Origin: Candidatus Omnitrophota bacterium
GTDB taxonomy: Bacteria; Ratteibacteria; UBA8468; B48-G9; JAFGKM01
Reading direction: 5' to 3'
Assembly (NCBI GenBank): GCA_023819375.1
Contig: JAMWDI010000003.1
Location: 186,001 to 250,000 of the forward strand
DNA length: 64,000 bases
Positions 4,878-28,667 of this stretch are shown here, one piece after another. Position 1 is the first letter of the stretch; every line of letters begins with the position of its first letter. Below the pieces are notes generated by a model, which saw only the letters and a list, made by a program, of their open reading frames with translations, did not search any database and had not been told where the DNA came from. The translations under genes were made by a program, and so were the position numbers.

Positions 4878-4917
4878 TTTTAAATCCCAAAATAAAAATT
4901 CAAAATATAAAATTTAT

Positions 4918-4946: not shown

Positions 4947-4966
4947 AAATATAAAGTAATATAAAA

Positions 4967-6022: not shown

Positions 6023-6066
6023 AAAATGAAAAAAAATATTCTAATAAATAAAAAGGAGGTGATAAT

Positions 6067-6825
6067 ATGAAAAAGAAAGGATTTACATTAATAGAATTGC
6101 TTGTTGTAGTAGCAATAATTGCAATTTTGGCTGCTATGCTTTTGCCTGCATTAAGCAAAGCGAGAGAAAGAGCACGTGCTTCTGTGTGTATGAATAATTT
6201 AAAGCAACTTGGACAGGCAATATTAATGTATGCTAATGATTATGATGGTAAATGGATGTGTTATCATTGGGTAACAAATGTAACAACTTATTATTGGATA
6301 TGTTTTTTAACACCGATAAGTTTTAAATCTGTACCAGCATATATTCCTGTGCCCAAAGCTAATAAACCACATGTAAGTGTTTGTCCAAGTGAATTTCCGA
6401 GAGTTTATGTTGATAGATGGAAAATATATGGAATTAATTATTCTTCTTATATAAATGTGTCTCCTGATGATACAAATGTTGTATTTTTAGGTTCTTATCC
6501 AGGATATGGAGATTATAGATGGATATACATAGGAAGAATTAAAAATCCTTCAAATTTTGTTCTTCTTGGAGATAGTTTTTATTTGTCAGCAGGTAGTCAA
6601 TATGGTTTTCAACTTAATTATAATGCAGGTGGAACAAATTATAGTGGGATACATTTTAGGCATAATGGAGTTGCCAATATATTATTTGCAGATGGTCATG
6701 TAGAAGCATGTAACCCATCAAGATTGAAAGTATGTTTTAAAGGAGGACAAACAAATACATGGCCTTATTATATTTTGGGTGTAAATTATGGACTTACAAA
6801 GGAAAGAGTACCATTTAATTTTTAA
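6067..6825 (+). CDS. pseudopilin, DUF1559 / H-X9-DG type
   Basis: [32 protein letters not shown] prepilin leader; [15 protein letters not shown]-terminal motif; strong SD aaggaggtgataatATG. Confidence 0.93.
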
Positions 6826-6826
6826 A

Positions 6827-8587: not shown

Positions 8588-11238
8588 AAAAGATGAAAAA
8601 AATTCTATTAACTTTGTTTTATTGGTTTTTATTTAACTTAAATAGTTTTTCTCAAATAAAATCAATAGTAGAAACAGAAAATTTTAAAGTCATATGGAGT
8701 TCAGATAAGCCAATTACAATAATTTCAGAAGATAATATAACGAAATATAAAATTGAATTTCCAGCAGTGAAAAAAGAAAAAGGACAAGTTTTATGTATGA
8801 GGTTTAAGGCATATTTAACTCATCCAACTCCAGGTGGCTGGAATCCATATCTTGGAATAAGTTTAAATGAAAAGTATCTTGGCAAATTTACAGAAACTGG
8901 TAGATATAGATTGTTAAATAGAACAGGTACTTTTAAAACAACAATTGGAGAAAGAGAGTGGTGGGGAACCCAATTTTCAATTCCCACAGTTATAACATTT
9001 TTTGGAGATGGAATTATTCTTGACAGCAGAGTTATAAGTTGCAAAGAAGAAGGTTATTGGTATTTATTTGATATTTCTGACTATGTTAATTATATTGAAA
9101 TAGGTCCTGATGAAAGAATTGAAAGCACAAAACCAAATGAATTAACGTTTTACAATACATATCTTAAGAGATATGTTAAAGAAAAAGAAATAAATCTTGT
9201 GATTGAAAATTTAGAAATAGGATATTTGCCTGAAGATTTCGTTAAAAATCTTGCGATAGGTGTGATGGCAGAATACAAAATAGATACAAAAAAAATAGAT
9301 TTTAAAACAAAAGAATATGAGTTGAATATAGGGGAAAATGGTTCTATTGAAATAATAATAGAAAAAGAAAAATATCAAATTTCAACATTTTTTTCATATC
9401 CAGGAGATAAAATTGGATTTAATTCCTTTTCTTCTGAAAAAGATTGGGATGTTAAGATTGAGAAAATAGATAAAGATAAAGTTAAAATAGAAGGAGAGAA
9501 TAATTTTTATAAAGTTGAAAGAGTTTTAACATTAAAAGGAGAAAAAATTGAAATAGAGGATAATTTAAAAAATAAACTTGATAGTGAGATAGGTGTGATA
9601 ATAAAGAATAAAATTTTAACTCCAGTGCCACCTTCTTACTATCGTCTTGCAGGAGTTGAAAAAGTAGAATATTTAGATGTTGTTGCTCCAAATCCTACTA
9701 TTTTTATTTCTCAAGATAAAAGCAGTTTAGGTTTTGTTGCAGAAGACAATATTTTGAGATTGCAAGGAGAAATGAGGAAATGGGGAGGTAATAGTTTTGA
9801 ATATTACACAAGACATTTTGGTCTTGATAAAAATAAAGAGTATAAATTTTGTTTTTCACTTTACCCAATAAAAAACAAAGGACCAAAGAAAAGTAATGAT
9901 TATTTTGCATTTATTAATAAAGTAAGAAGGGATTGGGATACTAATTTTACTATTGAAGGGCCTATTATAATGGGAGCAACTGTGATTCCAGAAAGAAAGG
10001 CAAAAGGCTATATGATATATCCCTGGTTAAGCACTAATGCCTATAATCCTAAAACAGACAAATTTTATACAATGGAAGAGATTGAAAACCAGTGGAAATC
10101 ATTAAAAGATAAAATAAGAAAATCAGATCCAAATGCGTATGTTCTTGGAGTTATTGAGGGGAATCTTTATGCAATTGATAAAAGAGAAATACCGGGTGGA
10201 GAAAAAATAGGACAAGGAAGAATTAATTATGGCACAATCCTAACTAAAGAGGAAACAAAATTGGTTGAAGATTACATAGGTCCATTAAAAGATTCTGTGT
10301 TGAGAACTGAAGATGGGAGAATGATAGTTGATACTTATTATCCTTCTACAACAACATATCTTAAAAATCTTTGGCTTTATGTAATGGTTTATTATATAGA
10401 AGGCAATTACAGATATAAACAGATGCTTGAATATTTAGATTTTATTTTTGATAAGATAGGATGTGATGGTGTTTATATTGACCAGTTTGAATTATCTTAT
10501 TCAGGATTAGGAACCATTAGAGATAGATGTACATATGAAAAATGGGATGGATATACAGTTGATATAGATGAAAATACTGGGAAGATTAAAAGGAAATATA
10601 CTGATTTAGGTTTGGTAAGTATTCCAGCAAGAAAGAAAATTTTAGATTATGCTTTATCTAAAGGTAAAATAGTTGTATTAAATGGTTATGCCTGTGCGAG
10701 AGAACTTCAAAATTTGAGAAATGTTTTTAGATTTGCTGAGATGGAAAATGACTTTCCTAATCCATTAAATTATATAAATCAAGAACCACCGGTATTAAGA
10801 TGGTGTGCCATGGGCCATTTATCAACTCCTATTATCTATGGATTAGAACCTGCAAAACTTGGAAAAGAAGGTAGTAATAGATATGCAGAAGTAGTAATAA
10901 AAGGGATAATCACTGCTTTAAAAAATGGACTTTTATATTATCCACATGCAAAAGGAGCAATAATCCCAAAAGAAGGAGAAGGAGCAGGAGAATATGGGCC
11001 AATGAATCATATGTTTCCAATAACAATAGAAGAGATAAATGAAGGATATATAATAGGGAAAGAAAGGATAATAAGTTGTGTTTCAAAAGTTTTCAAATTT
11101 AATAAAGAGCCAAAGGTATATTTATTTGATTTAAAAGGCAGAGAAAAAGAGCATAATTTTAAGATAGAAAAGAAAGGTAAAGAATGGGAGATAGATGTTA
11201 AATTAAATGACTGGAATGAAATATGTATAATTGAATAA
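8584..11238 (+). CDS. secreted TIM-barrel glycosidase-like protein, unclassified
   Basis: N-terminal hydrophobic signal; [15 protein letters not shown] barrel-like motif; 4-nt overlap with previous CDS. Confidence 0.55.
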
Positions 11239-11257
11239 GAAAAGGGGGGGTAATAAT

Positions 11258-12001
11258 ATGAAAAAGAAAGGGTTTACATTAATAGAATTGCTTGTTGTAG
11301 TAGCAATAATTGCAATTTTGGCTGCTATGCTTTTGCCTGCATTAAGCAAAGCGAGAGAAAGAGCACGTGCTTCTGTGTGTATGAATAACTTAAAACAACT
11401 TGGACTTGCAGTTTATCTTTATACACAGGATTATGAAGAATGGTTACCTGTTGCTGATGGTTTTATATTGTGCGGTTTTGGAACTCATTATAACTGGGTA
11501 ACTATGCTTTTACCTTATTTGATGAGGGGTAAAACATATGGGATGACGCCTCCTTCTCAAACTCCTTATTTTGACTTATGGGGTGGTTGGTATAATACAC
11601 CGAATAATATAAAAAATATTTTCTGGTGTCCCTCTGGAATGAAAGAAAGAATGATTTCTTCAAATGGTTTAAGTAAAGATGGGCCAAATTATGGATATAA
11701 TGGGTACTGTGGATATTGTAGAGGACAATGGGGATGGCCTACATATCCTGAACAGGGAATGAAAAAAATAAGCAAGGTGAGAGAGCATTCAAAAGCATTT
11801 TTAATTGCAGATGTAAGAGCCAATGTTGATATAAGACATATTTTTCCCAGATATAAAATTTATGTTGGAGAAAATTTCAGTAGAAGACATAACAATGGTG
11901 TTAATTTTCTTTTTGTTGATAATCATGTAGAATGGAGAACATGGGAAAAAATTCCTGACCCATCAAAAGATATTATCTTCTGGATTAACTATGCGCAGTA
12001 A
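11258..12001 (+). CDS. pseudopilin, DUF1559 / H-X9-DG type (second copy)
   Basis: Same prepilin leader as the 6067 gene; [19 protein letters not shown]; start placed at ATG 11258 after ggggggtaataat. Confidence 0.92.
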
Positions 12002-12018
12002 AAAAAGAGGGAAAACTT

Positions 12019-15000
12019 ATGAAAAAATTGTTGATATTATTTGGTATTATAATTTCTGTTTTTGAATGTAGTGGTTTAAACTGGCAAGAAAAAGATGATG
12101 TATATATATTAAATAATGGGACTATAGAACTTACCATATCAAAAAAAAGACCAGGAGAAATAATAGAAATTAGTGTAAGTGGGTTTGAGAGTAGGAATTT
12201 TTTTAATAATTACCTTTCCTTTTCACCAAAAGAGAAGGAATATTTATCAACATGGAAATTTTTAAATAAAACAGATACAAAAATTTTTAAAGAAGGCCCT
12301 TTTCTTATTTATAGAATTCAACAAGATTGGGGATTTTTAGAGTTGATTGAAGAGATAAAAATGGAAGAGAACAAAGATTACTTCTTTTTTTCTTATGTTT
12401 TTTTACCAAAGACCAAATACTATGTAAAAAGGATAACAATTCAAATTGGGTCTTCTTTAAAATACAGAGTATTCAGAAGTATTTATGGTCCTTACAAAAA
12501 ATTGGAAAATACAAAAGAAGGCAAATGGTACACTTATGGATATGATTTGTGGAAAGGGAACAGGTTTGCAGAGAATAAATGGTTTGCTTTTGAAGGAGAA
12601 AATGGAGAAGGAGTATGTTTTGTTTTCCCTGAAATAGGTAACTGGAATACATTTATAGGAAAATGGAAATATATCTGGGGTTGTGATCTTCAAGATGGCA
12701 GATTTACAATAGAATTTGATACACCTGTTTTATACGAAAGAGAAATAGAAGATGAGATAGGTATAATGGATATGTGTATAGGATTTTATAAGAATAATGC
12801 AGAAGAATATGCTTTAAATTTGCTAAAAAAATTTGAAAAAAAGAAAGAAGAGAAAGTTTTGCCAATTCTTAAAATTAATAAAAAAATAAATATAGATGGA
12901 GAGTTAAGTGAAGAAGATTGGACTAAAGGATTCATTTTCAAGAATTTTATAAATACACAATTTTTAAGAAAACCTAAAAATGAAACAGAAGTAATTTTTT
13001 TATATGATGAAAAAGGGATATATGTAGGATTTAAATGTTATGATGAAAGAATTGAAGAATTAAAAATGACAAAAACAGAAAGAGATTCAGATATATGGGA
13101 GGATGATGATATAGAATTTTTCTTTTATCCAGAAGGTAAATATTATTATCAGATAGCAATAAATCCAAAAGGAACGATATATGATTCAAAAATAGATAAA
13201 GAAACAAGAAAACATGATAAGAGTTGGAATGCGGATATAAAAGCAAAAACAAAAATAGAAAAGAACTTTTGGCAGGGAGAACTATTTATACCGTGGAAAG
13301 ATTTAGGCATTGATTACAGAATGTTGGAAGATGGAGAAATTTTATTAAAAGGAGATGTAGGAAGAGACAAAAAAGAGAAATTTGAAAGTCCAAGGGAGAT
13401 TTCAAATATTTTCTACAGCCCTGAAAAAAAATGGCATGAAGTTAAAAATTATGGCTTATTTAAACTGACAAAAGAAGAAGTTTTATCAATGAATATAAAA
13501 AATCAAGATAAAGTAATGAATTTACAGGAAAAAATTGTTAATATTGAGTTAAAAGGAGGAAAAGACAGATTTTATAATATATTTGTTATGTTTTTAGATG
13601 GGAATGACAATGAAGTATTTAGTGGAAATAGAATAATAAAAGGTGGCAAAGAAAGACAGATAGATATTCCATTTGAGATACAGAAAGGAGAGGTTGAAAA
13701 ATTAATATTTGGCATAAAAGATTTTGAAAAAGAAGAATTAATTTTTAGTTCTATATTACCTGTAATAAGTCCTAAAAAACAAATTCATCAAGCACAACTT
13801 TTAAAAAGCGAAAAAAGTTTTGATGTGTTTTTTGTAAGTCCTAATGTTAAAATAAGGCCTGATGATAATTTTGTTGCAGAAAAGACATCTCCAGAAATAA
13901 AAATTTATTCAGCAAAGAATGAATATGAACCATTTCAAATTGTGATAAATCCAAAAGAAAACTTAAAGTTAGAGAATATAAATATAAAATTTACAGACCT
14001 TGTTGGGAAAGATGGGAAAATAGAAAATAAAAACATAAACTGGAGATTGGCAGGATATATAGACATAAAAACACCATCGCCAGTAAAAGGAACATATCCA
14101 GGGAAATGGCCAGATCCATTGTTTGTAAAGGAGAGTTTTTCAATAGAGGAAAGAAGAAATTACCCAATATGGTTTACAATATATGTTCCAAAAGATACTA
14201 AAGAAGGCGAGTATAAAGGAGAAATAGAAATATTATCAGGAGATAAATCTCTGGTTAAATTTTTCCTTACTGTGAATGTTTGGAATTTTGTCTTACCTGA
14301 TATTGCTAATTTAAATGTAATTGCAGGTGCTGACTTTTTAGGCAAATTAAGGCAGAATATGAAATTTGATAAATTGCTTGAAAACTATAAAAATCATAGA
14401 ATAGCAAGTTCAAGTTATTTTCATTATGGAGTTAAACCAGAGGATTATTTTGAAAAGTATAAATTTAAAGAGGGGTTTCTACCTCTACCACTTATGGGTA
14501 ATAATGTTACGCGAGGTCCAGGACAAACACAATTTTCTATTTTTTATGGTAAACCCGTTGATGTAGAAAATGAAGAATTTAAAACTTTTTTCAAGACAAA
14601 AGTAAAAGAAGTGGTGGAGGAGATAAAAAGTAAAAGATTGCTTGATAAATGTTATTTTTATTTGTGGGATGAGCCAGCATGGAATCAATCTGAATGGGTA
14701 AGAAAAACATTGGTAGGTCTTGCAAAACTTGTAAGAGAAGTTGACCCAGAAATAAAGATTTTTATATCATATCCAGAAGGGGTTCCAGGGGAAGAAGGAG
14801 AGTTACCGATTGATTTAATAGATATTTGGTGTCCACCTGTTTCCTGGGGAGTTGGTCCAACAAGATTAAATGAAAAACTTATAACTGATTTTAAAAGCAA
14901 AGGCAAGAAATTTTATGTTTATTATAATCGTATTTTTCTTGTAGATTTACCTGCAATAAGTTCAAGAGTAGTACCTTTAATGATGTTTAAATATGGAATA

Positions 15001-15372
15001 GATGGACTACTTATATGGAGTACAAATTATTATACTTATGCAAAAAATGTAGACCCATGGGACCCAGAAACATGGTATTATATGAAAGGAGATGGAATAT
15101 TATTATATCCAAATGAGAAATGGGATGATGTTATAGATAGTATAAGATGGGAACTATTGAGAGAAGGACTTGATGACTATGATTATTTATATTATTTAAA
15201 AGGAGTATTAGAAAAGAAAAAGTTGATAGAAAAAGAGAAAAAGGAAGGAGAAAAACTTTTAAAAGAAGCATTAAATTTAGTTAAAGATTTCTGGAATTAT
15301 GAACTTGACTATAAAAAATATGAAGAAATAAGATATAAAATAGGAGAATTTTTGAATAAAATAGGGATGTAA
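12019..15372 (+). CDS. secreted protein with CBM9-like domain and DUF4091 / GH123-like catalytic domain
   Basis: IDGELSEEDW...DDDIEFFFYPEG (CBM9-like); YFYLWDEPAW...GDGILLYPNEKWDDVIDSIRWELLREGLDDYDYLYYL (DUF4091 pattern). Confidence 0.75.
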   Translation: MKKLLILFGIIISVFECSGLNWQEKDDVYILNNGTIELTISKKRPGEIIEISVSGFESRNFFNNYLSFSPKEKEYLSTWKFLNKTDTKIFKEGPFLIYRIQQDWGFLELIEEIKMEENKDYFFFSYVFLPKTKYYVKRITIQIGSSLKYRVFRSIYGPYKKLENTKEGKWYTYGYDLWKGNRFAENKWFAFEGENGEGVCFVFPEIGNWNTFIGKWKYIWGCDLQDGRFTIEFDTPVLYEREIEDEIGIMDMCIGFYKNNAEEYALNLLKKFEKKKEEKVLPILKINKKINIDGELSEEDWTKGFIFKNFINTQFLRKPKNETEVIFLYDEKGIYVGFKCYDERIEELKMTKTERDSDIWEDDDIEFFFYPEGKYYYQIAINPKGTIYDSKIDKETRKHDKSWNADIKAKTKIEKNFWQGELFIPWKDLGIDYRMLEDGEILLKGDVGRDKKEKFESPREISNIFYSPEKKWHEVKNYGLFKLTKEEVLSMNIKNQDKVMNLQEKIVNIELKGGKDRFYNIFVMFLDGNDNEVFSGNRIIKGGKERQIDIPFEIQKGEVEKLIFGIKDFEKEELIFSSILPVISPKKQIHQAQLLKSEKSFDVFFVSPNVKIRPDDNFVAEKTSPEIKIYSAKNEYEPFQIVINPKENLKLENINIKFTDLVGKDGKIENKNINWRLAGYIDIKTPSPVKGTYPGKWPDPLFVKESFSIEERRNYPIWFTIYVPKDTKEGEYKGEIEILSGDKSLVKFFLTVNVWNFVLPDIANLNVIAGADFLGKLRQNMKFDKLLENYKNHRIASSSYFHYGVKPEDYFEKYKFKEGFLPLPLMGNNVTRGPGQTQFSIFYGKPVDVENEEFKTFFKTKVKEVVEEIKSKRLLDKCYFYLWDEPAWNQSEWVRKTLVGLAKLVREVDPEIKIFISYPEGVPGEEGELPIDLIDIWCPPVSWGVGPTRLNEKLITDFKSKGKKFYVYYNRIFLVDLPAISSRVVPLMMFKYGIDGLLIWSTNYYTYAKNVDPWDPETWYYMKGDGILLYPNEKWDDVIDSIRWELLREGLDDYDYLYYLKGVLEKKKLIEKEKKEGEKLLKEALNLVKDFWNYELDYKKYEEIRYKIGEFLNKIGM

Positions 15373-15387
15373 AAAAGAGGAGGGGAT

Positions 15388-18300
15388 ATGAAAAAAATAA
15401 TGTTTTTTTGTTTTGTAATTTTTTCAAGTATGTTTATTTCTACTTCAAATTCTCAGGAAAATTTATTGAAAAATGGTAGTTTTGAAATAGATGAGAATAA
15501 TGATGGAATACCTGATGGATGGAGAATTCGTAGTGTTCAAGGTTCAACCTGTAAATATGAACTTGATGAAAAAGTTTATCATTCAGGTAAAAGGTCTGGG
15601 AAAATTATTTTTGACCCTAAAAGAGAAAGTTATGATGAAGGTTATTATGTTTGTGATTTTAAGAATTTTGAAGTAGGTAAAACATATTTATTTTTTGGAC
15701 ATGTAAAGGCAGAAAATTTCAATGGAAGAGCAACTTTAAGTATTTCATTTCTGGATAAAAGTAATAAAAGCATTCAGAGTATATCCAAACAAGTAACAAT
15801 AAAAGACAATCTTGACTGGAAGAAGTTACAAGTAAAAGGAATTGTTCCTGAAGGTTGTGTAAATATAAGAATTTTTACAGATACATTTGGAGGGCCTGGT
15901 GGGATTGTATGGTGGGATAGTTTAGGCATTTATGAGATATCTGAAGAAATGAAAGAACAAATAGCAATGGTGATATCTAATTTTGAGAAAGAGGAAGATA
16001 TGAAATTGTGGAGTCCACAAGGAGTAAAAGTAGAAAGAACAAAAGAAAATGCTTCAGAAGGCCAATATGCTATAAAAGTTTTTTTTCCTGGCTCTGAAAT
16101 AGATACTTGGCCTGGAATTTATAAAGAATTTTTTGTAAAAGAAAGTGATTGGACAAATTTTGATGGATTTGCTTTTGATGTATATAATCCTTCAGATGAA
16201 ATTGTGAATGTTTATTTAAGAATTGACGATAGAGATGGAAATAAGACATTTCTCAGTTATGGTTGTCTTCCTCAAAAAGTTACGAAAGTAATTGTTGAAA
16301 CAGATTCTTTAAGTGACATAAATTTAAAAAGATTAAAAGGTATTTTAGTTTATTTAAGAATGCCAAGAAAGGATTATACTTTATTCTTTGATAACTTTAG
16401 ATTCCTTGGTAAACCTGTTGAAGAAAAGCAGGATAAAAAAGTAACAAAACTTGATTTAGAAAAAAAAATTCTTGTTGAAAAAGATTTTACAGAATTGTTC
16501 TTTTTAGATAATTTTGAAGACAAAAAAATAAATGAAAAATTGTGGCAATTTACAGATGAAGGGATTGAAATTGTAAATAATAAATGTATTTTAAAAGAAA
16601 ATAGTCAATTAATGAGTAATTTTGTTTATCCTTATGGTATTCTTGAAGTAAAATCTGCATTTGAAAAACAACCAACAACTGGAGCCCTTGCTTTTGGCTG
16701 GAGAGAAAAATTTGGGGCAAAACCAAGAATAACAATTTCAGTTGAAGAATCAAATCCTCAGAAAATAAGATGTTCTATTTACGATGATGAAGGAAATATT
16801 AACTGGTGGTATGATTTAATTCCATTTGATACAAATTACCATATTTACAAAATTGTTTGGGAAAGCAATAATGTTATCAAATTTTACGTTGATGGAGAAT
16901 TGAAAGTTAAAAATGAAATAAAGGAGAAAATATCACCCAGACCAATTACATTTTACAATTTTGATTCAGATGGAATTTTGAGTATTGATTATGTCAGGTT
17001 TTATACAAGCAAAGAGATAAAAGAAAATATAGATATATTTCAAGTTCAAAAATTTGAAATTCCAAAGTTAAAATTTATTGAGGTTAAATATGTAGACGAA
17101 AAACCAATGCCCAAATTGAGTTCAGAAGAAACTAAAAGGGGTTACATTTTTTTCAAAAGGCCTTATATAGATTTAATTTTTCCTAATACTATTCCTTATG
17201 AAGAGGAAATAATGAGGGATAATATTCTGGAGGTTTTTGTTTCTCCAGGAGAATATGAACCTGTAACGTTTGCAATAAGAGCATTAAAAGATTTGAAAAA
17301 TTATCAAATTGATGTAAGTGACCTTGTATCAAAAGAAAGAAATAAAATAACGAAGGAAAATATAAGGATAGGAATTGTGAGGACATTAAACAAAAGAAGG
17401 CTTTATAATATCAATTGGTCAAATGAATATATTAATATTCCTGTTTATATTGAAGAAAGAAATTTAGTTGATATCCCAAAGGATACAAATAAACAAATAT
17501 GGTTAACAATTAAAATTCCTGAAAATGCAAAAACAGGAGTTTACTTTGGAGAAATAAATTTTGCTCCAATTTTAGGTTCAGAAGCAGGAGAAAAAGCAAC
17601 ACTTTACTTGAAAGTTAATGTATTGCCTATAAAACTTGAAGAACCAAAAGGGAAACTTTATGGGATGTATTATACATGTAAAAGAAATTCAAAAGCAGAA
17701 ATACTTAATGATTTTAAAAACATGAAGGAATATGGAATGACTACTGTCGGTTTATGTATTCCTTTTAGTCCTGAAGAAGTAATAGAGGAAAAAGATGGTT
17801 TTAAGTTTAAATTTAAAGATAATGACAGGTTTATTTGGTGCCTTGAATGTTACAAAGAAGTTGGTTTTACTGAACCAATTTTATTATTGAGTGGACCAGA
17901 TCAATATGCTTACAACTATTTAAGTAGAAGTTATTCAGATACCTCTAAAGAGTTTGAAGATAAATTTAAGAAATTCATGCTATCATTTATGGAGGAAGCG
18001 AAGAAAAGGAATTGGCCTAAAATGATATTTCAACCATTTGATGAGCCATCTTGGCAGTCTCAGGAATTAATGAGAAAAACTTTAAGAGCACTTGTTTTAT
18101 TAAAAGATTTGGGACTTCCAACAGAAACAGATGGTCCATTTGATGAATTCATGAAAAAAGCAGAACAGTACTCAGATTATTTGAATATAAATGGTGGGCT
18201 TGCACCTTTGGATATATTAAGAGAATTAAAAAAGAAAGGAAAATTCATTTTAATGTACAATAATGATGTTGAAGGTTATAGACCAGAAGTTATGAGATAT

Positions 18301-18798
18301 TCTGCTGGATATTATATGTGGATTACAGAAATAGATGGAGTTTTTAATTGGGAATATCAGGGAATTGGTAAAGATCCATATAATGATTTAAAACATATAA
18401 ATCCAAACTTTATTTATTGGTATCCGAAAACAGAAAGAGAGACAGGAGGACCAGCAATAACTTATGAAGCATTTAGAGAAGGAATAGATGATTATAGATA
18501 TTTATTGACATATAAAAATCTTGTTGAAAAACTTAAAAACCAATTATCTAAAAATGCTGAATATGCTAACTTTGTGATAGAATCAGAAAGAAAAATAAAA
18601 GATCTTTTAAGTAAGATAAAATTTACAACAAGGATAAGAGAACAGGCAAAATGGACAGAAGAGTTATTGATAGGCCCAGGAGAGAAAATAATAACAGGTT
18701 CATTAAAACTCCCTAATGGTTTAGATTTTAAAGATTATGATGAAATTAGAAAAAAAATTATTGATGAAATTATAAAACTACAAAATATTTTGAAATAA
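15388..18798 (+). CDS. secreted multidomain protein: CBM4/9-like, GH16/LamG-like jelly-roll and DUF4091-like domains
   Basis: NLLKNGSFEIDENNDGIPDGWRI; LDNFEDKKINEKLWQF...; MIFQPFDEPSWQ...PAITYEAFREGIDDYRYLLTYKNL. Confidence 0.72.
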   Translation: MKKIMFFCFVIFSSMFISTSNSQENLLKNGSFEIDENNDGIPDGWRIRSVQGSTCKYELDEKVYHSGKRSGKIIFDPKRESYDEGYYVCDFKNFEVGKTYLFFGHVKAENFNGRATLSISFLDKSNKSIQSISKQVTIKDNLDWKKLQVKGIVPEGCVNIRIFTDTFGGPGGIVWWDSLGIYEISEEMKEQIAMVISNFEKEEDMKLWSPQGVKVERTKENASEGQYAIKVFFPGSEIDTWPGIYKEFFVKESDWTNFDGFAFDVYNPSDEIVNVYLRIDDRDGNKTFLSYGCLPQKVTKVIVETDSLSDINLKRLKGILVYLRMPRKDYTLFFDNFRFLGKPVEEKQDKKVTKLDLEKKILVEKDFTELFFLDNFEDKKINEKLWQFTDEGIEIVNNKCILKENSQLMSNFVYPYGILEVKSAFEKQPTTGALAFGWREKFGAKPRITISVEESNPQKIRCSIYDDEGNINWWYDLIPFDTNYHIYKIVWESNNVIKFYVDGELKVKNEIKEKISPRPITFYNFDSDGILSIDYVRFYTSKEIKENIDIFQVQKFEIPKLKFIEVKYVDEKPMPKLSSEETKRGYIFFKRPYIDLIFPNTIPYEEEIMRDNILEVFVSPGEYEPVTFAIRALKDLKNYQIDVSDLVSKERNKITKENIRIGIVRTLNKRRLYNINWSNEYINIPVYIEERNLVDIPKDTNKQIWLTIKIPENAKTGVYFGEINFAPILGSEAGEKATLYLKVNVLPIKLEEPKGKLYGMYYTCKRNSKAEILNDFKNMKEYGMTTVGLCIPFSPEEVIEEKDGFKFKFKDNDRFIWCLECYKEVGFTEPILLLSGPDQYAYNYLSRSYSDTSKEFEDKFKKFMLSFMEEAKKRNWPKMIFQPFDEPSWQSQELMRKTLRALVLLKDLGLPTETDGPFDEFMKKAEQYSDYLNINGGLAPLDILRELKKKGKFILMYNNDVEGYRPEVMRYSAGYYMWITEIDGVFNWEYQGIGKDPYNDLKHINPNFIYWYPKTERETGGPAITYEAFREGIDDYRYLLTYKNLVEKLKNQLSKNAEYANFVIESERKIKDLLSKIKFTTRIREQAKWTEELLIGPGEKIITGSLKLPNGLDFKDYDEIRKKIIDEIIKLQNILK

Positions 18799-18839
18799 AT
18801 TATTTACAAATTTCCATTAAGATGGGTAAAATTTAAATT

Positions 18840-18915
18840 GGAAGGGCACTTATAGTTAAAAGTTGGGTTTTTAAAACCCATACCTGAAAGGGTGGAAACC
18901 CGAAAGTGCCCTTCC
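18840..18915 (+). ncRNA. compact three-way-junction RNA structure of unknown function (could instead be a complex terminator)
   Basis: 12-bp closing stem GGAAGGGCACTT/AAGTGCCCTTCC enclosing hairpins TGGGT(TTTTAAA)ACCCA and GGGT(GGAA)ACCC; followed by ttaatttttt. Confidence 0.55.
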
Positions 18916-18933
18916 TTAATTTTTTAGTATTAG

Positions 18934-18962
18934 TTGACATAACTTTAATCATAAGGTAAAAA
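18934..18962 (+). promoter_or_regulatory. possible sigma70-like promoter for the ABC exporter gene (TTGACA-17-TAAAAA)
   Basis: -35 consensus exact, -10 weak. Confidence 0.4.
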
Positions 18963-18988
18963 TCTTTTAAAATTTTTAGAATTTAAAA

Positions 18989-21148
18989 ATGGAAACAGAT
19001 GAAATAAAAATAGAGGTAGAAGCAGATTTAGATTTATTTGGTAATCCTGCAAAAATAAAAGTATTAGCAACATCTGAAAAATTATATATAATTCCTGAAA
19101 AAGGATTTCAAGAAAGAATTTCTTTTGACTTAAATAGAATTGAAGGATTTAATATAAGACAAGTTGTTGGTAGTGCCTTTTTACAAATCAAGTTAAATGG
19201 AAATTTTATTGATGTTGTTAGATTTACAAATTCCCACAGATATATTTTTTCTCGCTTTATAATCCAACTTCAAAATTTAAAAGAAGGACTTCCAGTTTCA
19301 GAAGAAATTTTAAAACAACCCCATCCTTTGTTATGTGAAAAATGTGGTTTCCCTTTACAATCAGAAAATTCAAAATGTCCTAATTGTCTAAAACAGGGAG
19401 CTATATTGTCAAGAGTTTTTGAATTACTATCAGAACATATGAAATGGATTTTTATAATTTTCTTTTTGATGATTATCGGAGTTGGTTTAAGTTTAGTTCC
19501 ACCAAGGATAACAAAAATTCTTGTAGATGAAGTTTTAACAACAAAAAGACATGTAGAATGGCTCCCTTATCTTGTTATTATTTTAGTTACTGCAGAATTT
19601 TTAAGGGCACAGATAAATATGCTGGTTGGAACAATTTCTGCTTCTGTTGGAACTCTTATAACAAACAGTTTAAGAAAAAAGTTATTTAAAAAACTTGAAG
19701 AATTATCCTTAAACTATTATGATGTGAATTCTGTTGGAACAATTATGACAAGATTTTCATCAGACGTTGAAGCATTTCACGGTTTTGTTACTCAAGCAGG
19801 ACAGGGTTTTCTTCTTAATTTATTCACAATAATTGGGATTGGTATTATGCTTTTTTCAATAAATTATCTTCTTGCCTTTTATGTTTTAATCCCAATTCCT
19901 TTTGTTGTTTTTGGTACAATATTTTTTTGGAGAAACATTTATCCAAAGTATTTTATGGTCTGGGATAGTCAGGCTAAACTTTCCACTTTTTTAAATAATG
20001 TTCTTTCGGGTATAAAAACAGTTAAAGCATTTGCGCAGGAAGAAAAAGAGTTTAAAAGGTTTGAATCTTATGCCGATAGTTTAAAAGAAACTGTGAGGAC
20101 AGTAAATATTAATATTTCAATTTTTAATCCTCTTATGAGTTTTTTCTTTGGACTTGGTGGTTTAATTGTATGGTATATTGGAGGAAAAAATGTTCTTGCA
20201 GGAAAATTAACCCTTGGTGAATTGATGGCATTTTTAGGATATATAGGAATGTTTTATGCTCCTTTAACTAACCTTACACTTTTGTCAACCTGGTTTAGTA
20301 ATTTTACATCAGCAAGTCACAGGATTTTTGAAGTTCTTGATACAGAACCACAAGTTAGAGAGCCAGTTAAAATTATTAAATTAGACAAAATAAAAGGAGC
20401 AATAGAATTTAAAAATGTTACTTTTGGCTATGATCCTTATCAACCAATTTTAAAAGATGTAAGTTTTAAAATTGAGCCTGGGGAAGTGGTTGGTATTGTT
20501 GGAAAAAGTGGGAGTGGTAAAACAACAATTATAAATCTTTTATGTAAATTTTATGAAGTTCAAAAAGGACAGATTTTAATCGATGGAATTGACATAAAAG
20601 AGATACCATCTTCAGAATTGAGAAAACATATAGGTCTTGTTTTACAGGAGCCATTTTTATTTAGAGGAACAGTTCTTGAAAACATACTTTATGGTAAACC
20701 TGATGCTACACTTGAAGAAGTAATATATGCAGCAAAAATTGCCAATGCTCATGATTTTATTATGAAACTGCCTAATGGATATGACACATTGCTTGGAGAA
20801 AGAGGAGCAGGGCTTTCTGGAGGAGAAAAACAGAGAATAACAATAGCAAGAGCAATTTTGTGTAATCCTGCAATTTTAATTCTTGATGAAGCCACATCTT
20901 CAGTTGATACAGAATCAGAAAAGAAAATTCAGGATGCTTTATCTTCCTTATGGAAAAACAGGACAACGATTATAGTTGCTCATCGTCTCTCAACTTTAAA
21001 AGATGCTGATAAAATAATAGTTGTTGATAATGGAAGAATTGCAGAGATTGGAACTCATACACAACTTATGGAAAAGAAAGGAATTTATCATAATCTTATT
21101 GTTATGCAGACACAACTTGCAAGTATTGATGAGTCCTTGATAAAATGA
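18989..21148 (+). CDS. MsbA-like ABC exporter (TM + ATPase) with N-terminal PH-like region and zinc ribbon
   Basis: GKSGSGKTT Walker A, LSGGEKQRITIARAIL signature; N-terminal CEKCGFPLQSENSKCPNC zinc ribbon. Confidence 0.9.
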   Translation: METDEIKIEVEADLDLFGNPAKIKVLATSEKLYIIPEKGFQERISFDLNRIEGFNIRQVVGSAFLQIKLNGNFIDVVRFTNSHRYIFSRFIIQLQNLKEGLPVSEEILKQPHPLLCEKCGFPLQSENSKCPNCLKQGAILSRVFELLSEHMKWIFIIFFLMIIGVGLSLVPPRITKILVDEVLTTKRHVEWLPYLVIILVTAEFLRAQINMLVGTISASVGTLITNSLRKKLFKKLEELSLNYYDVNSVGTIMTRFSSDVEAFHGFVTQAGQGFLLNLFTIIGIGIMLFSINYLLAFYVLIPIPFVVFGTIFFWRNIYPKYFMVWDSQAKLSTFLNNVLSGIKTVKAFAQEEKEFKRFESYADSLKETVRTVNINISIFNPLMSFFFGLGGLIVWYIGGKNVLAGKLTLGELMAFLGYIGMFYAPLTNLTLLSTWFSNFTSASHRIFEVLDTEPQVREPVKIIKLDKIKGAIEFKNVTFGYDPYQPILKDVSFKIEPGEVVGIVGKSGSGKTTIINLLCKFYEVQKGQILIDGIDIKEIPSSELRKHIGLVLQEPFLFRGTVLENILYGKPDATLEEVIYAAKIANAHDFIMKLPNGYDTLLGERGAGLSGGEKQRITIARAILCNPAILILDEATSSVDTESEKKIQDALSSLWKNRTTIIVAHRLSTLKDADKIIVVDNGRIAEIGTHTQLMEKKGIYHNLIVMQTQLASIDESLIK

Positions 21149-21660
21149 ATGATAAATTAAAATTTTTGACTTCTAAAAATACAAAAATTTTGAAAGGAGA
21201 ATTTGAAACAATGGATGTATATTTTGTTGAAACAGAAACTTTATATAAAAATGTTTTTGCGATTTCCTGTTTTCCAATTAGAGAACCTTTAAAATTTATA
21301 TCCCTGTTTTATCAGAAGGAAAATGGAGAATTTGAGGAAATAGGGATAATTAAGGATATTTTTGATTTTTCAGAAAATGAAAGAAGATTAATTTTAAAAA
21401 CACTGAATAAACATTATTTTTCCTATAAAATAATTCGTATTTTTGACATTAAATGGAAATTCGGATTTCTCCTTTTTCATGTATTGACAGACAAAGGGGA
21501 AAAGGAATTTTATTTAAAGTGGGAAAGAAGCAAAACTATTGATTTTGGGAAGAAGGGGAAGATTTTGATAGATGTTTTTGAAGATAGATATTTAATTGAA
21601 GATATAGAGTCGTTCTCTCCTATGGAAAAAAATATGTTTAAGAGGTTTATTTATTGGTGA
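21145..21660 (+). CDS. DUF1854 family protein
   Basis: [13 protein letters not shown]...[35 protein letters not shown]; 4-nt overlap with the ABC exporter gene. Confidence 0.75.
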
Positions 21661-21674
21661 AAGGAAAAAAAAAT

Positions 21675-22091
21675 ATGAAATCATATACAGAATATTTATG
21701 GTTTTGTACAGAAAAAAGGATTGAGTTTATAAATATTACAGAGAAAGTTGAGGAAGCAGTTAGAAAAAGTGGAGTGAAAGAAGGTATATGTCTTGTTAAT
21801 GCTATGCATATAACAAGTAGTGTTTTCATAAATGACGATGAGAAAGATCTTCATTTTGATTTTATTGAATTTCTTGAAAAACTTGCTCCATATAACCCCT
21901 CAAAATATAAACATAATCTTACAGGAGAAACAAACGCAGATGCACATTTAAAAAGAACTATAATGGGAAGAGAAGTAGTTGTAGCAATAACAAATGGTAA
22001 ACTTGATTTAGGACCTTGGGAACAAATATTTTACGGTGAATTTGATGGTCAGAGAAAGAAAAGAGTTTTAATAAAAATAATTGGAGAATAA
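21675..22091 (+). CDS. YjbQ / UPF0047 (secondary thiamine-phosphate synthase) family protein
   Basis: [64 protein letters not shown]; start placed at internal ATG. Confidence 0.85.
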
Positions 22092-22277
22092 TTCTTTTAA
22101 TATGTTGATCTTATAAATAGAAAAAAAATTCTTTCAAAAAGGTAATATCTTTTTTAATCATGAATTTTCAAAGAGTAAGTGCCGGTCATCAAAATCTCTT
22201 TTTTCAAATCAAAAATTAATGTAACATAATTGTAAATATTGGTAAAAAGATATAAAATAAAATTTAAGACAAGGATA

Positions 22278-23219
22278 ATGAGAGATAAATTTGGAAGAGA
22301 AATTGATACATTAAGGATTTCAGTTACAGATAGATGTAATTTCTCTTGTCTTTACTGTTCAAAAGAATTCAATAAAATAGAAAAGGAAAAAATCCTTTCT
22401 TATGAAGAAATAATAAATATTGTGAAAGTTTTCACAAAGTTAGGAATAAAAAAGATAAAATTGACTGGAGGAGAGCCTCTTATTAGGGAAAATATAACAT
22501 ATCTTATAAAAGAAATTTCAAATCTTCCAGAGATTGAGGATATTTCATTGACAACAAATGGTTTTTTTCTTTTTGAAAATGTTGAAAAAATTAAAGAGGC
22601 AGGGATTAAAAGGATAAATATAAGCCTGGATACACTTGATGAGAAGAAATTTGCAAGAATAACAGGTTTTAAACATCTGGATAGAATAAAGAGAGTTGTT
22701 GAAGAAAGTTGTAAAACTTTTAGTTCTGTAAAATTGAATGTGGTTATTATAAAAAATATAAATCTTGATGAAATAGAAGATTTTTTGAATTTTGCCAGAG
22801 AAAATAAAATGATTTTAAAGTTTATAGAACTTATGCCTGTTTATAAAAATCTTTCTTTCTGGAAAGAAAATTTTGTACCTTATAAAGTTGTTAAGAATAT
22901 TATTGAAAGTTTTGTTTCCATTTTTAAGATTGAAGAAAGAAGAATAAAAGTTTATAAAGGTGAAAATTTGATTGTAGAATTTGTCTCCCCAGTTAGTGAA
23001 CCATTCTGTGGAAAGTGTGATAGATTGAGAATTGATTGTAAAGGTGATCTGTTTTTATGTTTATATGGAAAGCCTGTTTTGAATTTGAAAAAGTTTAATG
23101 AAGAGATTTTAAATTTGATTCAGTTTTATATTTTTAACAGAGAATATAGTTTTAATCCATTTGCTCAAATTTCAGTTAAAAATTATAGGTTTCCAGTTAT
23201 GAATTGTCTTGGTGGGTAA
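22278..23219 (+). CDS. moaA: GTP 3',8-cyclase MoaA
   Basis: RISVTDRCNFSCLYC radical SAM motif, LTGGEPLIR, C-terminal FCGKCDRLRID cluster and terminal GG; ORF may begin further upstream at 22239. Confidence 0.92.
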   Translation: MRDKFGREIDTLRISVTDRCNFSCLYCSKEFNKIEKEKILSYEEIINIVKVFTKLGIKKIKLTGGEPLIRENITYLIKEISNLPEIEDISLTTNGFFLFENVEKIKEAGIKRINISLDTLDEKKFARITGFKHLDRIKRVVEESCKTFSSVKLNVVIIKNINLDEIEDFLNFARENKMILKFIELMPVYKNLSFWKENFVPYKVVKNIIESFVSIFKIEERRIKVYKGENLIVEFVSPVSEPFCGKCDRLRIDCKGDLFLCLYGKPVLNLKKFNEEILNLIQFYIFNREYSFNPFAQISVKNYRFPVMNCLGG

Positions 23220-23911
23220 TGATTAAAGAGATAGAAATTTTGAGATATAGAAATAGAGGATTTGAAAAAGTAAATGATAAAGTTGTTGAAGAAATAAATT
23301 TTAAAATTTTTGTTAATAAAAAGGAATTTGCAGTTTTAACAATTTTGCCTGAAAAAATAGAAAGTTTCATTTATGGTTTTCTTTTTACGAATAGTTTAAT
23401 TGAAAGTGTGAGAGATATTAAAAAACTAAAAATTTCTGGAAATATATGTAAAGTTGAAGTTTATAATAAAAGAAAAATAAGTTTTTCTAAAAATTTTGAA
23501 AAAGATGATGTTAAAATTTCATCTAAAAAAATTTTTTCAATTTTGAAGAAATTTCAAAATATGTCAAAAATTTACAGGGATACAGGCGGAGTACATTCTT
23601 GTGGAATTTCTGATGGTAATGATATTCTGGTTTTTGCTGAAGATATTTCAAGACATAATGCTTTTGATAAAGTTGTAGGTGAAGCCATTTTGAAGAATAT
23701 AAATTTAAGGGATAAGATTGTTTTAACATCGGGAAGGATTACCTCTGACACTGTTTTTAAAGGGATAAGAATAAAAGTTCCTGTAATTGTTTCAATTTCT
23801 GCCCCGAGTTTTTATGCAATTGAGTTAGGGAAGTTAAATAATATTACATTGATTGGTTTTGCAAGAGGTAAAAGATTTAATGTTTATACTTGTGAATGGA
23901 GGATTTTATGA
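23219..23911 (+). CDS. fdhD: formate dehydrogenase accessory sulfurtransferase FdhD
   Basis: DTGGVHSCGISDG, EDISRHNAFDKVVGEA, LTSGRITSD motifs. Confidence 0.93.
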   Translation: MIKEIEILRYRNRGFEKVNDKVVEEINFKIFVNKKEFAVLTILPEKIESFIYGFLFTNSLIESVRDIKKLKISGNICKVEVYNKRKISFSKNFEKDDVKISSKKIFSILKKFQNMSKIYRDTGGVHSCGISDGNDILVFAEDISRHNAFDKVVGEAILKNINLRDKIVLTSGRITSDTVFKGIRIKVPVIVSISAPSFYAIELGKLNNITLIGFARGKRFNVYTCEWRIL

Positions 23912-24309
23912 TAGATATAGGAAATAAAAAGATTTCAAAGAGAAAGACAGTTGCAGAAGGTGAGATTATACTTGATGAAAAAATTATTAAAGATATAAGA
24001 GAAGGTAAGGTTGAAAAGGGAGATGTTTTGAACTGTGCAAAGATTTCAGGAATTTTGGCAGTTAAAAATACACCATATTTAATTCCTTTTTGTCATCCTG
24101 TAAAAATAACAAAAGCAAAAATAGATTTTAAATTTTTTTCTAATAAGATTAAAGTTATCTGTGAAGTTGAAGGAATTGATAGGACAGGTTTTGAAATGGA
24201 GGCATTAACAGGAGTTTCCATTTCATTGTTAACTATTTATGATATGTGTAAAGTTTATAAAAGAGAAATGAAAATAGGTGAAATAAAATTGATTGAGAAG
24301 AAAAAATGA
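23908..24309 (+). CDS. moaC: cyclic pyranopterin monophosphate synthase MoaC
   Basis: KTPYLIPFCHP-like NTPYLIPFCHPVKITKA; GIDRTGFEMEALTGVSISLLTIYDMCK. Confidence 0.95.
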   Translation: MIDIGNKKISKRKTVAEGEIILDEKIIKDIREGKVEKGDVLNCAKISGILAVKNTPYLIPFCHPVKITKAKIDFKFFSNKIKVICEVEGIDRTGFEMEALTGVSISLLTIYDMCKVYKREMKIGEIKLIEKKK

Positions 24310-25223
24310 AAGGTTTTGTTTATTCTGTAAATGTTGGAAAAAGGAAGGGAGAGGGTAAAGTGCAAATGGAAAGAATTATTCTTGTTGAAAATTATGGGGT
24401 AGAGGGTGATTGTCATGCTGAAAAAAATTCTTATAGACAGGTGAGTTTACTTTCCTGGGAAAGAATGAATGAGGAATTTTTCTGTTTGAAAAGAAAGGGA
24501 GAGTTGAAACCTGGAATGTTTGCTGAAAATATAACAACAGAAAAGATTGATTTAAGGAAACTTGAAATTGGAGATAGGTTAAAAATTAATGAGGTAATAA
24601 TTGAAATTTCAGAAATTGGGAAGAAATGTCATAATTGGTGTGATATATATAAAAAAGTTGGTAAATGTTTGATGCCAAAGGAGGGAATATTTGGAAGAGT
24701 AATTAAAGGTGGAGAAATAAGAAAAGGTGATATTATTGAAGTTATACCAAAGATAGATGCAGGGATTTTAACTATAAGTGATGGTTGTTATTTTGAAAAA
24801 AGGGAAGATAAAAGCGGAAGATATCTGATTGAGAAGTGTAAAGAAAGAGAATGGAAGGTTTTGAAATATGAAATTGTGCCGGATGAAAAAGATGTTATAA
24901 AAGAGAAGTTGATAGAGTTTTCAAAGGTATGTGATTTGATTTTGACGACTGGAGGGACAGGAATAACAGAGAGAGATGTAACTCCTGAGGCGACAAAAGA
25001 AGTTATAGAAAAGGAAATTCCTGGAATATCTGAAATTTTAAGGATTAAGGGCTTTGAAAAAACAAAGTTTTCGGTTATTTCAAGAGGAATTTGTGGTATT
25101 AAGGGAAAAACACTTATAATAAATTTGCCGGGTAGCCTAAATGCAGTTTCTTATTCTTTTGAAATTTTAGATGATATAATAACACATTCAATTGAAATGA
25201 TAAGGGGATTTCCTCATGAGTGA
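24306..25223 (+). CDS. fusion of MOSC domain and MogA/MoaB-type molybdopterin-binding domain
   Basis: MOSC: GVEGDCHAEKNSYRQVSLL...GMFAENITTE; MogA: LTISDG...LTTGGTGITERDVTPEAT...LIINLPGSLNAV. Confidence 0.88.
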   Translation: MKGFVYSVNVGKRKGEGKVQMERIILVENYGVEGDCHAEKNSYRQVSLLSWERMNEEFFCLKRKGELKPGMFAENITTEKIDLRKLEIGDRLKINEVIIEISEIGKKCHNWCDIYKKVGKCLMPKEGIFGRVIKGGEIRKGDIIEVIPKIDAGILTISDGCYFEKREDKSGRYLIEKCKEREWKVLKYEIVPDEKDVIKEKLIEFSKVCDLILTTGGTGITERDVTPEATKEVIEKEIPGISEILRIKGFEKTKFSVISRGICGIKGKTLIINLPGSLNAVSYSFEILDDIITHSIEMIRGFPHE

Positions 25224-25668
25224 AAAGGATGTAAGAGAAATTGTTGGAGAAATTAAAAGGAAGAATTTGTCATACCTTGAAATATTGCAGTATATTCAAG
25301 AAAAATATAATTATGTTCCTGTTGATTTGCTTAAAAAAATATGTAAAGAACTTGAAATTCCAAAAAGCAAAATTTTTGGAATTTTAACTTTTTATGCTCA
25401 ATTTTCAACACAGGAAAGAGGGAAATATTTAATAAGAGTCTGTGATGGAACTGCTTGTCATGTGAAAGGAGGAAGTAAAATCATTAATATGTTGAAAAAG
25501 GAATTTGATCTTGAGGATGGGAAGACAACAGCCGACAAAAAATTTACATTACAGATTGTTGCTTGTCTTGGTAGTTGTTTTATGGCTCCTGTTTGTATGG
25601 TGAATTCAAGTTATTATGGAAATATGGATGAGAATAAATTTAAAAAAATACTTAAAAATTTGAAATGA
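25216..25668 (+). CDS. NuoE/HylA-like [2Fe-2S] subunit of NAD-linked oxidoreductase
   Basis: VCDGTACHVKGG...VACLGSCFMAPVCMVN; LTFYAQFST. Confidence 0.9.
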   Translation: MSEKDVREIVGEIKRKNLSYLEILQYIQEKYNYVPVDLLKKICKELEIPKSKIFGILTFYAQFSTQERGKYLIRVCDGTACHVKGGSKIINMLKKEFDLEDGKTTADKKFTLQIVACLGSCFMAPVCMVNSSYYGNMDENKFKKILKNLK

Positions 25669-28667
25669 GGTTTAAAAAATTATCTGAATTCAAGGATTAT
25701 TGTGAAAAATTAAAAAAAGAAGAGAATGAAATTCCCAAAATAAAAGTTTGTATAACTGGTTGTAGAGCTGCTGGTTCTATTGAAATTTTTGAAAAGTTTA
25801 AAGAGAAAATAGAGAATTCAAAAAAAATAAAACTTGTGCCAACTGGATGTCAGAAGTTTTGTTCTGGGGGACCTGTTGTTAAAGTTGAGTTTGATGGTAG
25901 TTCTGTTTTATATGAAAAAGTTTCATTGAAGGATGTTGATAAAATATTGAAAAAGACAGAAAAAAAAGAAATAGTTGATGAATTAGTTTTAAAGAATGAA
26001 AATTTTTTAAAAAATCAAACATTTAAAGTTCTTAAACTCTGTGGTGAAATAAATCCTCTTGATGTTGATGATTATATAAAAAATGGGGGTTTTTCTTCTT
26101 TTCTTAAAGTTATTGAAGAATATACACCTGAAAAAGTTATTGAAGAGTTAAAAAAATCAAAATTGAGAGGAAGGGGAGGGGCTGGTTTTCCAACCTATTT
26201 AAAATGGGATATTGTTAGAAGAAAAGAAAGTGATGAAAAATTTGTAATTTGTAATGGAGATGAGGGAGATCCAGGAGCTTTTATGGACAGGACATTACTT
26301 GAAGGTGTTCCGTTTCAAGTTATTGAAGGGATGCTTATATGTGCTTACACAATTGGTGCTAAAAATGGTTATTTTTATGTAAGGGCAGAATATCCAATTG
26401 CTATTGAACATATTGAAAAAGCAATTAATATCTTATATGATATTGGCCTTTGTGGAAAAAATATCCTTGGAACTTCCTTTTCTTTTGATATTGAACTTAA
26501 AAAAGGAGCAGGTGCTTTTGTTTGTGGTGAAGAGACTGCTTTAATTGCCTCTATTGAAGGAAAAAGGGGAATGCCAAGACCGAGGCCACCATTTCCTGCT
26601 GAAAAAGGATTGTTTGAAAAACCGACATGTATAAATAATGTTGAAACATTTGCAAATATTCCGATTGTTATAAAAGAGGGTGGCGAAAATTTTTCAAAAA
26701 TAGGAACAGAAAGAAGTGGTGGAACAAAAATATTTTCACTTGCAGGAAAAATAAAAAATACTGGACTTGTAGAAGTTCCTCTTGGGACTCCTTTATGGAA
26801 AATTATATATGAAATAGGAGGTGGCCCTCTTGAAGGAAGAAAAATAAAAGGGGTTCAGACAGGTGGCCCTTCTGGAGGATGTATTCCAATTGAACTATTT
26901 AACACTCCTGTTGATTATGAAACATTTGCCTTCCTTGGTTCAATTATGGGTTCTGGTGGGATGATTGTAATAGATGATAAGGTATGTATTGTTGAACTTG
27001 CAAGATATTTTCTCGACTTTGTTCAGAAAGAATCATGTGGAAAGTGTATTCCTTGTAGAATTGGAACAAAAAGAATGCTTGAAATATTTGAGAAAATTAT
27101 AAGTGGAAAAGGTGAAAAAGAAGATTTAGAAAAACTTGAAGAATTAGGAAATTATATAAAAGAAAATAGTTTATGTGGACTTGGTCAAACAGCGCCTAAT
27201 CCTGTATTAACCACTATCAAATATTTTAGAGATGAGTATCTTGAACATATTTATCTTAATTATTGCAAAAGTGGACAATGTAAAAATTTAACTTATGCTC
27301 CATGTACAAATTCATGTCCTGCTGGAGTTGATGTTCCTGCATATATTGAAGCGATTGAAAATGGCGATTTTATTAAAAGTTATGAAATTATATGTAAGGA
27401 TTTACCATTTCCATCCATTTGTGGTAGAGCATGTTATGCTCCATGTGAAAATATGTGTAGGAGAAAAGATATAGATAAAGAGGTTGGCATAAGAATTCTT
27501 AAAAAATTTGTTTGTGATTATGCATGGGAAAAAGGGTTATCTGTTAAGAATTTTACAAAATTTAAACCACAAATAAACAAAAAAGTTGCAGTTATAGGTG
27601 GAGGGATTTCTGGTTTAACCTGTGCATATTTTTTATCAAGAGAGGGAATTAGAGTTGATATATATGAAAAAGAAAAAGATTTAGGAGGTGTGGTTAAAAA
27701 TTGCATTCCAGAATTCAGATTGCCAGAAAAAATTGTAAAAAAAGAAATAGAGGATATTTTGAATGACAGGATAAAAGTTTATTTTAATAAAATTCTGGGG
27801 AAAAATATTGAAATTTCAGAACTTGAAAAGAAATATGATGCCATTTATATCTCTATTGGAACAGAAACAAGAAGTATTGAAAAATTAAAAAATGTCTATG
27901 ATGGTGTTGAATTTTTAAGAAAAGTAAAAAGTGGCAAGATTAAAAAGTTGAAAGGAAAAATTGGTATTATTGGTGGAGGGAATGTTGCTATTGATTGTGG
28001 CAGAACTGCTAAAAGATTGGGAGCAAAAGATGTTTATATAATTTATAGAAGAACTGAAGAAGAAATGCCTGCCCATAAGTTTGAAATAATTGAAGGTAAA
28101 ATGGAAAAAATCAAATTTTATTATCTTCTTTTACCTGAAAAAATGGAAAATGAAGATGGGAAAGTTAAAGTTATATTAAGAAAAATGAAAATAGCAGATG
28201 AATTGGATAAAGACGGAAGAAGAAAAATAATGCCTACAGAAGAAAAAATTGTTCAATATTTTGATTGTTTGATTTATGCTATTGGACAGAAAACAGAATT
28301 AAATAAATTTTTTGAGTATAATGAGATAAATAAATTTTATAATAGAGTTGAAGGAAGGAAAATATTCATTGGAGGTGACTTTTTGAGGGGTCCTTCTTCA
28401 ATAATTGATGCAATTGGAGATGGGAAAAAAAGTGCTTTTTTAATCATAGAATATTTAACAGGAAAGAAAATGGAAAAATTTTGGATGAAAAAAATTGAAA
28501 AGGAGATGATCAAACCAGAAAAAATAGAAGAGTATCCAAAACAAAGTGCAAAATTTTTGAGTTTAAAAGAAAGATTGAAAAGTTTTAAAGAAGTTGAGAA
28601 GAATATTAGTAAAAAACAGGCAATAATTGAAGCAAAAAGGTGCTTAAAATGTCATCTGGAAAAATAA
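25665..28667 (+). CDS. NuoF-like flavoprotein fused to GltD-like NAD(P)/FAD oxidoreductase
   Basis: RGRGGAGFPTYLKWD, CNGDEGDPGAFMDR, ESCGKCIPCRIGTKRM; then GltD-type CTNSCPAGVDVPAYI, GGGISGLTCAYFLSREG, IGGGNVAIDCGRTAKRLGA. Confidence 0.92.
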   Translation: MRFKKLSEFKDYCEKLKKEENEIPKIKVCITGCRAAGSIEIFEKFKEKIENSKKIKLVPTGCQKFCSGGPVVKVEFDGSSVLYEKVSLKDVDKILKKTEKKEIVDELVLKNENFLKNQTFKVLKLCGEINPLDVDDYIKNGGFSSFLKVIEEYTPEKVIEELKKSKLRGRGGAGFPTYLKWDIVRRKESDEKFVICNGDEGDPGAFMDRTLLEGVPFQVIEGMLICAYTIGAKNGYFYVRAEYPIAIEHIEKAINILYDIGLCGKNILGTSFSFDIELKKGAGAFVCGEETALIASIEGKRGMPRPRPPFPAEKGLFEKPTCINNVETFANIPIVIKEGGENFSKIGTERSGGTKIFSLAGKIKNTGLVEVPLGTPLWKIIYEIGGGPLEGRKIKGVQTGGPSGGCIPIELFNTPVDYETFAFLGSIMGSGGMIVIDDKVCIVELARYFLDFVQKESCGKCIPCRIGTKRMLEIFEKIISGKGEKEDLEKLEELGNYIKENSLCGLGQTAPNPVLTTIKYFRDEYLEHIYLNYCKSGQCKNLTYAPCTNSCPAGVDVPAYIEAIENGDFIKSYEIICKDLPFPSICGRACYAPCENMCRRKDIDKEVGIRILKKFVCDYAWEKGLSVKNFTKFKPQINKKVAVIGGGISGLTCAYFLSREGIRVDIYEKEKDLGGVVKNCIPEFRLPEKIVKKEIEDILNDRIKVYFNKILGKNIEISELEKKYDAIYISIGTETRSIEKLKNVYDGVEFLRKVKSGKIKKLKGKIGIIGGGNVAIDCGRTAKRLGAKDVYIIYRRTEEEMPAHKFEIIEGKMEKIKFYYLLLPEKMENEDGKVKVILRKMKIADELDKDGRRKIMPTEEKIVQYFDCLIYAIGQKTELNKFFEYNEINKFYNRVEGRKIFIGGDFLRGPSSIIDAIGDGKKSAFLIIEYLTGKKMEKFWMKKIEKEMIKPEKIEEYPKQSAKFLSLKERLKSFKEVEKNISKKQAIIEAKRCLKCHLEK

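Follow-up and report, generated by a model that had tools for sequence, protein, structure and literature searches.

A probable small RNA gene with a covarying three-way junction in an uncultured candidate bacterial phylum

The window, the 64,000-nucleotide stretch of DNA analyzed here, contains a conspicuous palindromic element, flanked by a gene with a GH123-like domain (15388-18798) on one side and by an ABC exporter gene (18989-21148) on the other. A sequence-only reading of the locus had proposed a small structured RNA, a ligand-sensing element or an elaborate terminator. The parts on which these proposals were built are present exactly as described (Table 1): a perfect 12-bp closing stem (P1), two GC-rich hairpins and a U-rich tail followed by a TTGACA motif at position 18934. 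The stated background of approximately 30% GC agrees with the value of 30.1% determined for the window. P1 encloses an interior of 52 bases and is the sole perfect inverted repeat of the window with arms of at least 12 bases and at least 7 G/C within 100 bases. No comparable inverted repeat occurred in 40 dinucleotide shuffles of the window. For both strands of the element, folding gave z-scores of approximately -5 to -6. In the minus-strand reading, hairpin 1 additionally resembles a small terminator of 7 pairs followed by ACTTTTAACT.

Table 1: Features of the element and its surroundings in the window.
Feature	Position	Strand	Description
Putative sigma70-like promoter of the RNA	18803-18832	+	TTTACA (18803-18808), 18-base spacer, TAAAAT (18827-18832)
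Three-way-junction element	18840-18915	+	76 bases
P1 closing stem, 5' strand	18840-18851	+	GGAAGGGCACTT; perfect complement of 18904-18915
Hairpin 1	18864-18880	+	TGGGT-TTTTAAA-ACCCA; in 5 of 6 copies
Hairpin 2	18890-18901	+	GGGT-GGAA-ACCC; paired in 6 of 6 copies
P1 closing stem, 3' strand	18904-18915	+	AAGTGCCCTTCC; pairs with 18840-18851
U-run, presumed terminator tail	18916-18925	+	TTAATTTTTT; directly after P1
Predicted RNA body and terminator tail	18840-18925	+	~86 nt; covariance-model homologues in 5 other genomes; compensatory changes
Separate promoter of the ABC exporter gene, outside the RNA	18934-18963	+	TTGACATAA...GGTAA, conserved before the orthologous exporter in G001 and G004

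Homologues were searched for among related genomes; the candidate phylum is small, with 35 genomes in the collection used. Direct DNA comparison starting from the window copy revealed no convincing homologue, and BLASTN in 60 relatives gave only chance matches of A/T-rich sequence. A covariance model was built from the one sequence and the three-way junction and was refined in two steps. The single-sequence model gave a full-length match in G005 (E=0.0012), which belongs to the same genus as the window genome (G000). Using the G005 copy as BLASTN query, a third copy was found in G003 of the same genus (E=9e-5). The model of these three copies then matched the sister-genus genome G014 at E=8e-8 without having been built with it, as well as G015 and G012, also of the sister genus, at E=0.03 and 0.05, respectively. 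A six-copy model run over 40 genomes yielded no further full-length copy, and the search of its own genome for further copies showed the window element to be single-copy. The total is thus six full-length copies, one per positive genome and distributed over two genera. The sequence-only reading had named a lack of covariation or of copies in relatives as what would speak against it; five homologues with compensatory changes were found instead. A point against the small RNA gene is that no copy was detected in the incomplete assemblies G001, G002, G004, G010 and G013, so that the gene would be either accessory or hard to detect.

No family of Rfam 15 matched at the gathering threshold, and at relaxed thresholds (E up to 10 and E up to 2, three copies in all) only non-riboswitch matches at chance level were obtained. 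Searches of phage and plasmid collections gave no useful match, and pattern scans of viral contigs gave no homologue. Several low-scoring model matches (L148-L151, L153-L164, L306 and L318) were judged non-homologous on inspection. Three further sites in order- or family-level relatives (L303, L304 and L305) were rejected as plain terminators; they carry P1-like stems (GAGGGCGG/CCGCCCTC and AGGGCGCT/AGCGCCCT) with T-runs behind or flanking them. The hammerhead ribozyme, whose core reads CUGANGA ... GAA, was also considered and discarded: the window copy has CUGAAA-stem-GAAA without the required GA step, and this core is not kept in the homologues.

The automatic MAFFT alignments A2, A4 and A5 misplaced the stems. 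Therefore, the structural alignment was written by hand with N as gap filler. In this six-copy alignment, which was guided by the structure of the first copy and comprises few and related sequences, 93.9% of the cells pair. Compensatory changes were observed at 10 of the 27 pairs (14 cells), and none of 500 shuffles attained these figures. When the pairing partner was slid by 1-3 columns as a control, 0-2 compensatory pairs resulted. RNAalifold applied to the hand-made alignment yields the same structure. Both sides had changed across the homologues in 7 of 16 P1 pairs. Hairpin 1 is altered to TGTGG/CCACA in G015 and broken in G012, and the top pair of hairpin 2 is U-A in three copies, C-G in two and a C-A mismatch in one. 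Judged from this alignment, the three-way junction is maintained by compensatory change.

The proposed three-way junction is consequently borne out by its preservation in the homologues, but it is not the minimum-energy fold of the window copy. On the + strand the predicted minimum-energy fold (-34.7 kcal/mol) swaps partners between the two GGGT/ACCC pairs, and the junction lies 1.6 kcal/mol above it. This alternative fold speaks against a small RNA gene; for four of the five homologues the junction is the predicted fold. The unpaired strands, which had looked conserved in the single sequence, turned out to be mostly variable: among the six copies almost every unpaired position changes, the loops included, and AUAG, shared by three copies, is the sole recurring stretch.

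The putative promoter in front of the window copy matches the consensus at 10 of 12 positions (shuffle p ~0.01), and its -10 hexamer ends 7 bases before P1. In G000, G003, G005 and G014 alike, the distance from the end of a sigma70-like promoter to P1 is 6-7 bases. The site stands out clearly in G000, G003 and G014, is less marked in G005 and G012 and is weak or absent in G015. When the six copies were combined and each was compared with shuffled versions of the sequence upstream of it, the signal reached p ~2e-4 to 3e-4 on the strand of the element; on the reverse strand the same test gave p ~0.5. The 38 bases upstream of P1 are alike between several copies even at unrelated loci, with 26/38 identities between G003 and G005 and 24/38 between G003 and G014 (both p ~0.0005), whereas the stretch from -80 to -40 is not alike between copies (all p >=0.17). 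Behind P1 a U-run follows in four of the six copies; it is identical in G000 and G003 and similar in G005 (TTCTTATTTTTC) and G014 (TTTTGTTATT). The shared unit thus spans approximately 42 bases before P1 through the U-run, the layout to be expected of a small RNA gene.

The TTGACA motif downstream of the element has a different owner. It is also present in front of the orthologous exporter of G001 and G004, where the element is missing, and therefore belongs to the exporter's own promoter. None of five same-genus genomes (G001, G002, G003, G004 and G005) carries the element at the orthologous exporter site. In the window a block of about 14 kb (4878-18922), with genes for a GntR/LacI-type regulator, DUF1559 proteins and glycoside hydrolases including two GH123-like ones, stands between the transketolase and ABC exporter genes; in G001 the exporter follows the transketolase directly.

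The recurrence of the element in five relatives, with paired base changes that preserve its fold and in most cases with a promoter in front and a stop signal behind, indicates that it is probably a hitherto undescribed small RNA gene. More specifically, we assign a probability of about 0.58 to the reading that it forms the body of a stand-alone small RNA gene with a predicted transcript of approximately 86-90 nt, whose closing stem doubles as terminator. This reading is favoured because it accounts for the covariation and the U-run as well as for the strand-specific promoter and the limits of the upstream similarity. Of the three options first offered, the small structured RNA is accordingly the best supported. 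From its position, the promoter would place the transcription start on the first base of P1 or directly beside it. The 5' end of the RNA would then pair with its 3' end as P1 and enclose the two hairpins in the three-way junction, a fold that the covariation demonstrates. The form of the 3' end suggests that the transcript ends at the U-run, so that P1 would serve as base of the fold and as intrinsic terminator. In the window genome the position of the element may also allow it to keep transcripts of the glycosidase operon from running on into the exporter gene. The stems are kept while the loops vary, which makes sensing of a small molecule less likely than a role as structured RNA, for instance as the binding partner of a protein.

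The strongest competitor of the small RNA gene is an elaborate, possibly bidirectional intrinsic terminator serving transcripts of the neighbouring genes on one or both strands. It would consist of a G/C-rich stem between an A-rich and a T-rich side, and the inner hairpins would have no function. P1 of the window copy, with 58% GC and the U-run directly behind it, has this form, and so do stem and U-run in the other three copies mentioned above. G015 and G012 count against the small RNA gene: promoter and U-run are weak on the strand of the element, and strong U-runs are found on the opposite strand (TTTTTCTATCTA and TTTTTTAATTAT). Moreover, the G015 copy is placed between the 3' ends of two convergent genes, encoding a GDT1-type transporter and homoserine dehydrogenase, and the plain terminators L303-L305 of relatives have similar GAGGGCG-type stems. 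However, ordinary terminators show neither compensatory upkeep of two inner hairpins nor 38 upstream bases common to unrelated loci, and the promoter signal is strand-specific. The G014 copy is located immediately upstream of a start codon and not behind a gene end. The large interior with two hairpins is not the single compact hairpin with a short loop expected of a terminator, and a consensus terminator scan of the + strand did not call the element. The proposal of an elaborate terminator was thus partly right, since closing stem and U-run have terminator form, but it leaves the conserved inner hairpins and the upstream region unexplained. As a complete account of the element it seems unlikely to us.

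We consider it distinctly less probable that the element is a dispersed MITE- or REP-like palindrome, maintained in the form of folded single-stranded DNA and carried from locus to locus by movement of its copies. The imperfect pairs of the alignment (A-C in three cells, G-U in one) do not favour the + strand as the selected RNA and point to no single RNA strand. The orthologous exporter sites without the element are also in line with movement, as are the different neighbours of four copies. The G000 copy follows the GH123-like gene. In G003 the element is found after a D-lyxose-isomerase-like and before an O-antigen-ligase-like gene, and in G014 it is followed directly by the start codon of an HI0933-like flavoprotein gene. 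The G005 copy, on the opposite strand, is located where a glycoside hydrolase family 2 gene ends and adjoins a UPF0047 (YjbQ-type) gene. This family 2 gene (L325 1728-3439) is split over two frames, by a frameshift or an assembly error. On the other hand, there is one copy per genome instead of several, and near-identical copies were not found. G012 and G015 share one locus, with LemA-type and GDT1-type upstream genes in common. Inspection by eye revealed no target-site duplication, and the comparison with G001 and G004 as possible clean empty sites is ambiguous owing to the A/T-rich flanks. Finally, UPF0047 and a moaA-fdhD-moaC block follow the element at a distance of a few genes in both G000 and G005, and rearrangement around one old gene may explain part of the apparent movement.

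The regions concerned are 3431-14198 of L325 (G005:C65) and 18840-28667 of the window, and the block reads more fully as moaA-fdhD-moaC-MOSC/Mog-nuoE-nuoF-like; the arrangement has opposite orientations in the two genomes and different intervening genes. A second dispersed repeat (GCATCGGAATTTCAATCCGATGCGGGATTAGGGGGTGAACGGGGGAAACAATCTGGTTGC...) was observed in G012, both beside the element and upstream of the exporter (L044 ~1300-1430 and L182 ~1590-1660).

A more speculative extension of the small RNA gene holds that promoter, three-way-junction RNA and terminator form a compact, phylum-specific unit of ~130 bp that relocates as a whole and regulates via a bound protein; three of its copies lie beside sugar-related genes. 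We regard this extension as improbable. A riboswitch or attenuator in the leader of the downstream gene, corresponding to the ligand-sensing element first suggested, is very improbable: although a three-way junction with terminator form would suit it and the G014 copy stands behind a promoter directly in front of a gene, the unpaired positions are not conserved, no Rfam riboswitch matched, each copy, with the possible exception of G012 and G015, is followed by a different gene, and in the window a conserved promoter belonging to the exporter itself is situated downstream of the element.

If transcribed, the element would add a new family of structured RNAs from a candidate phylum without cultured members, for which a limited literature search found no small-RNA work. 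The six-copy alignment and the models are a resource that others can test. The case also illustrates that covariation among relatives can validate a structure first spotted by eye in a single genome, and that the same follow-up can correct which reading is favoured, here a free RNA over a ligand sensor.

Known systems resemble the element to different degrees. Purine (RF00167) and TPP (RF00059) riboswitches likewise have a three-way junction at which a closing stem meets two hairpins. The element differs from them in lacking conserved junction and loop nucleotides and in not occupying the leader of a common gene, and the window copy has no Rfam riboswitch match at E up to 10. With palindromic repeats of the REP/MITE type it has in common that it is an intergenic imperfect palindrome at different loci in different genomes; unlike these it is single-copy per genome and highly diverged between genomes, yet kept by compensatory changes. 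Intrinsic (rho-independent) terminators also combine a G/C-rich stem with a U-run, but they are normally one compact hairpin, whereas the element has a 52-base interior, two covarying hairpins and a conserved promoter-like region upstream. Stand-alone bacterial small RNA genes, the 'sRNA' type of Rfam, have their own promoter, a structured transcript of 70-100 nt and an intrinsic terminator as last stem and are restricted to certain lineages. The element, with its putative promoter and predicted transcript, would share these properties. It departs from that type in matching no Rfam 15 family and in its terminator stem, which pairs the 5' with the 3' end and encloses the other hairpins.
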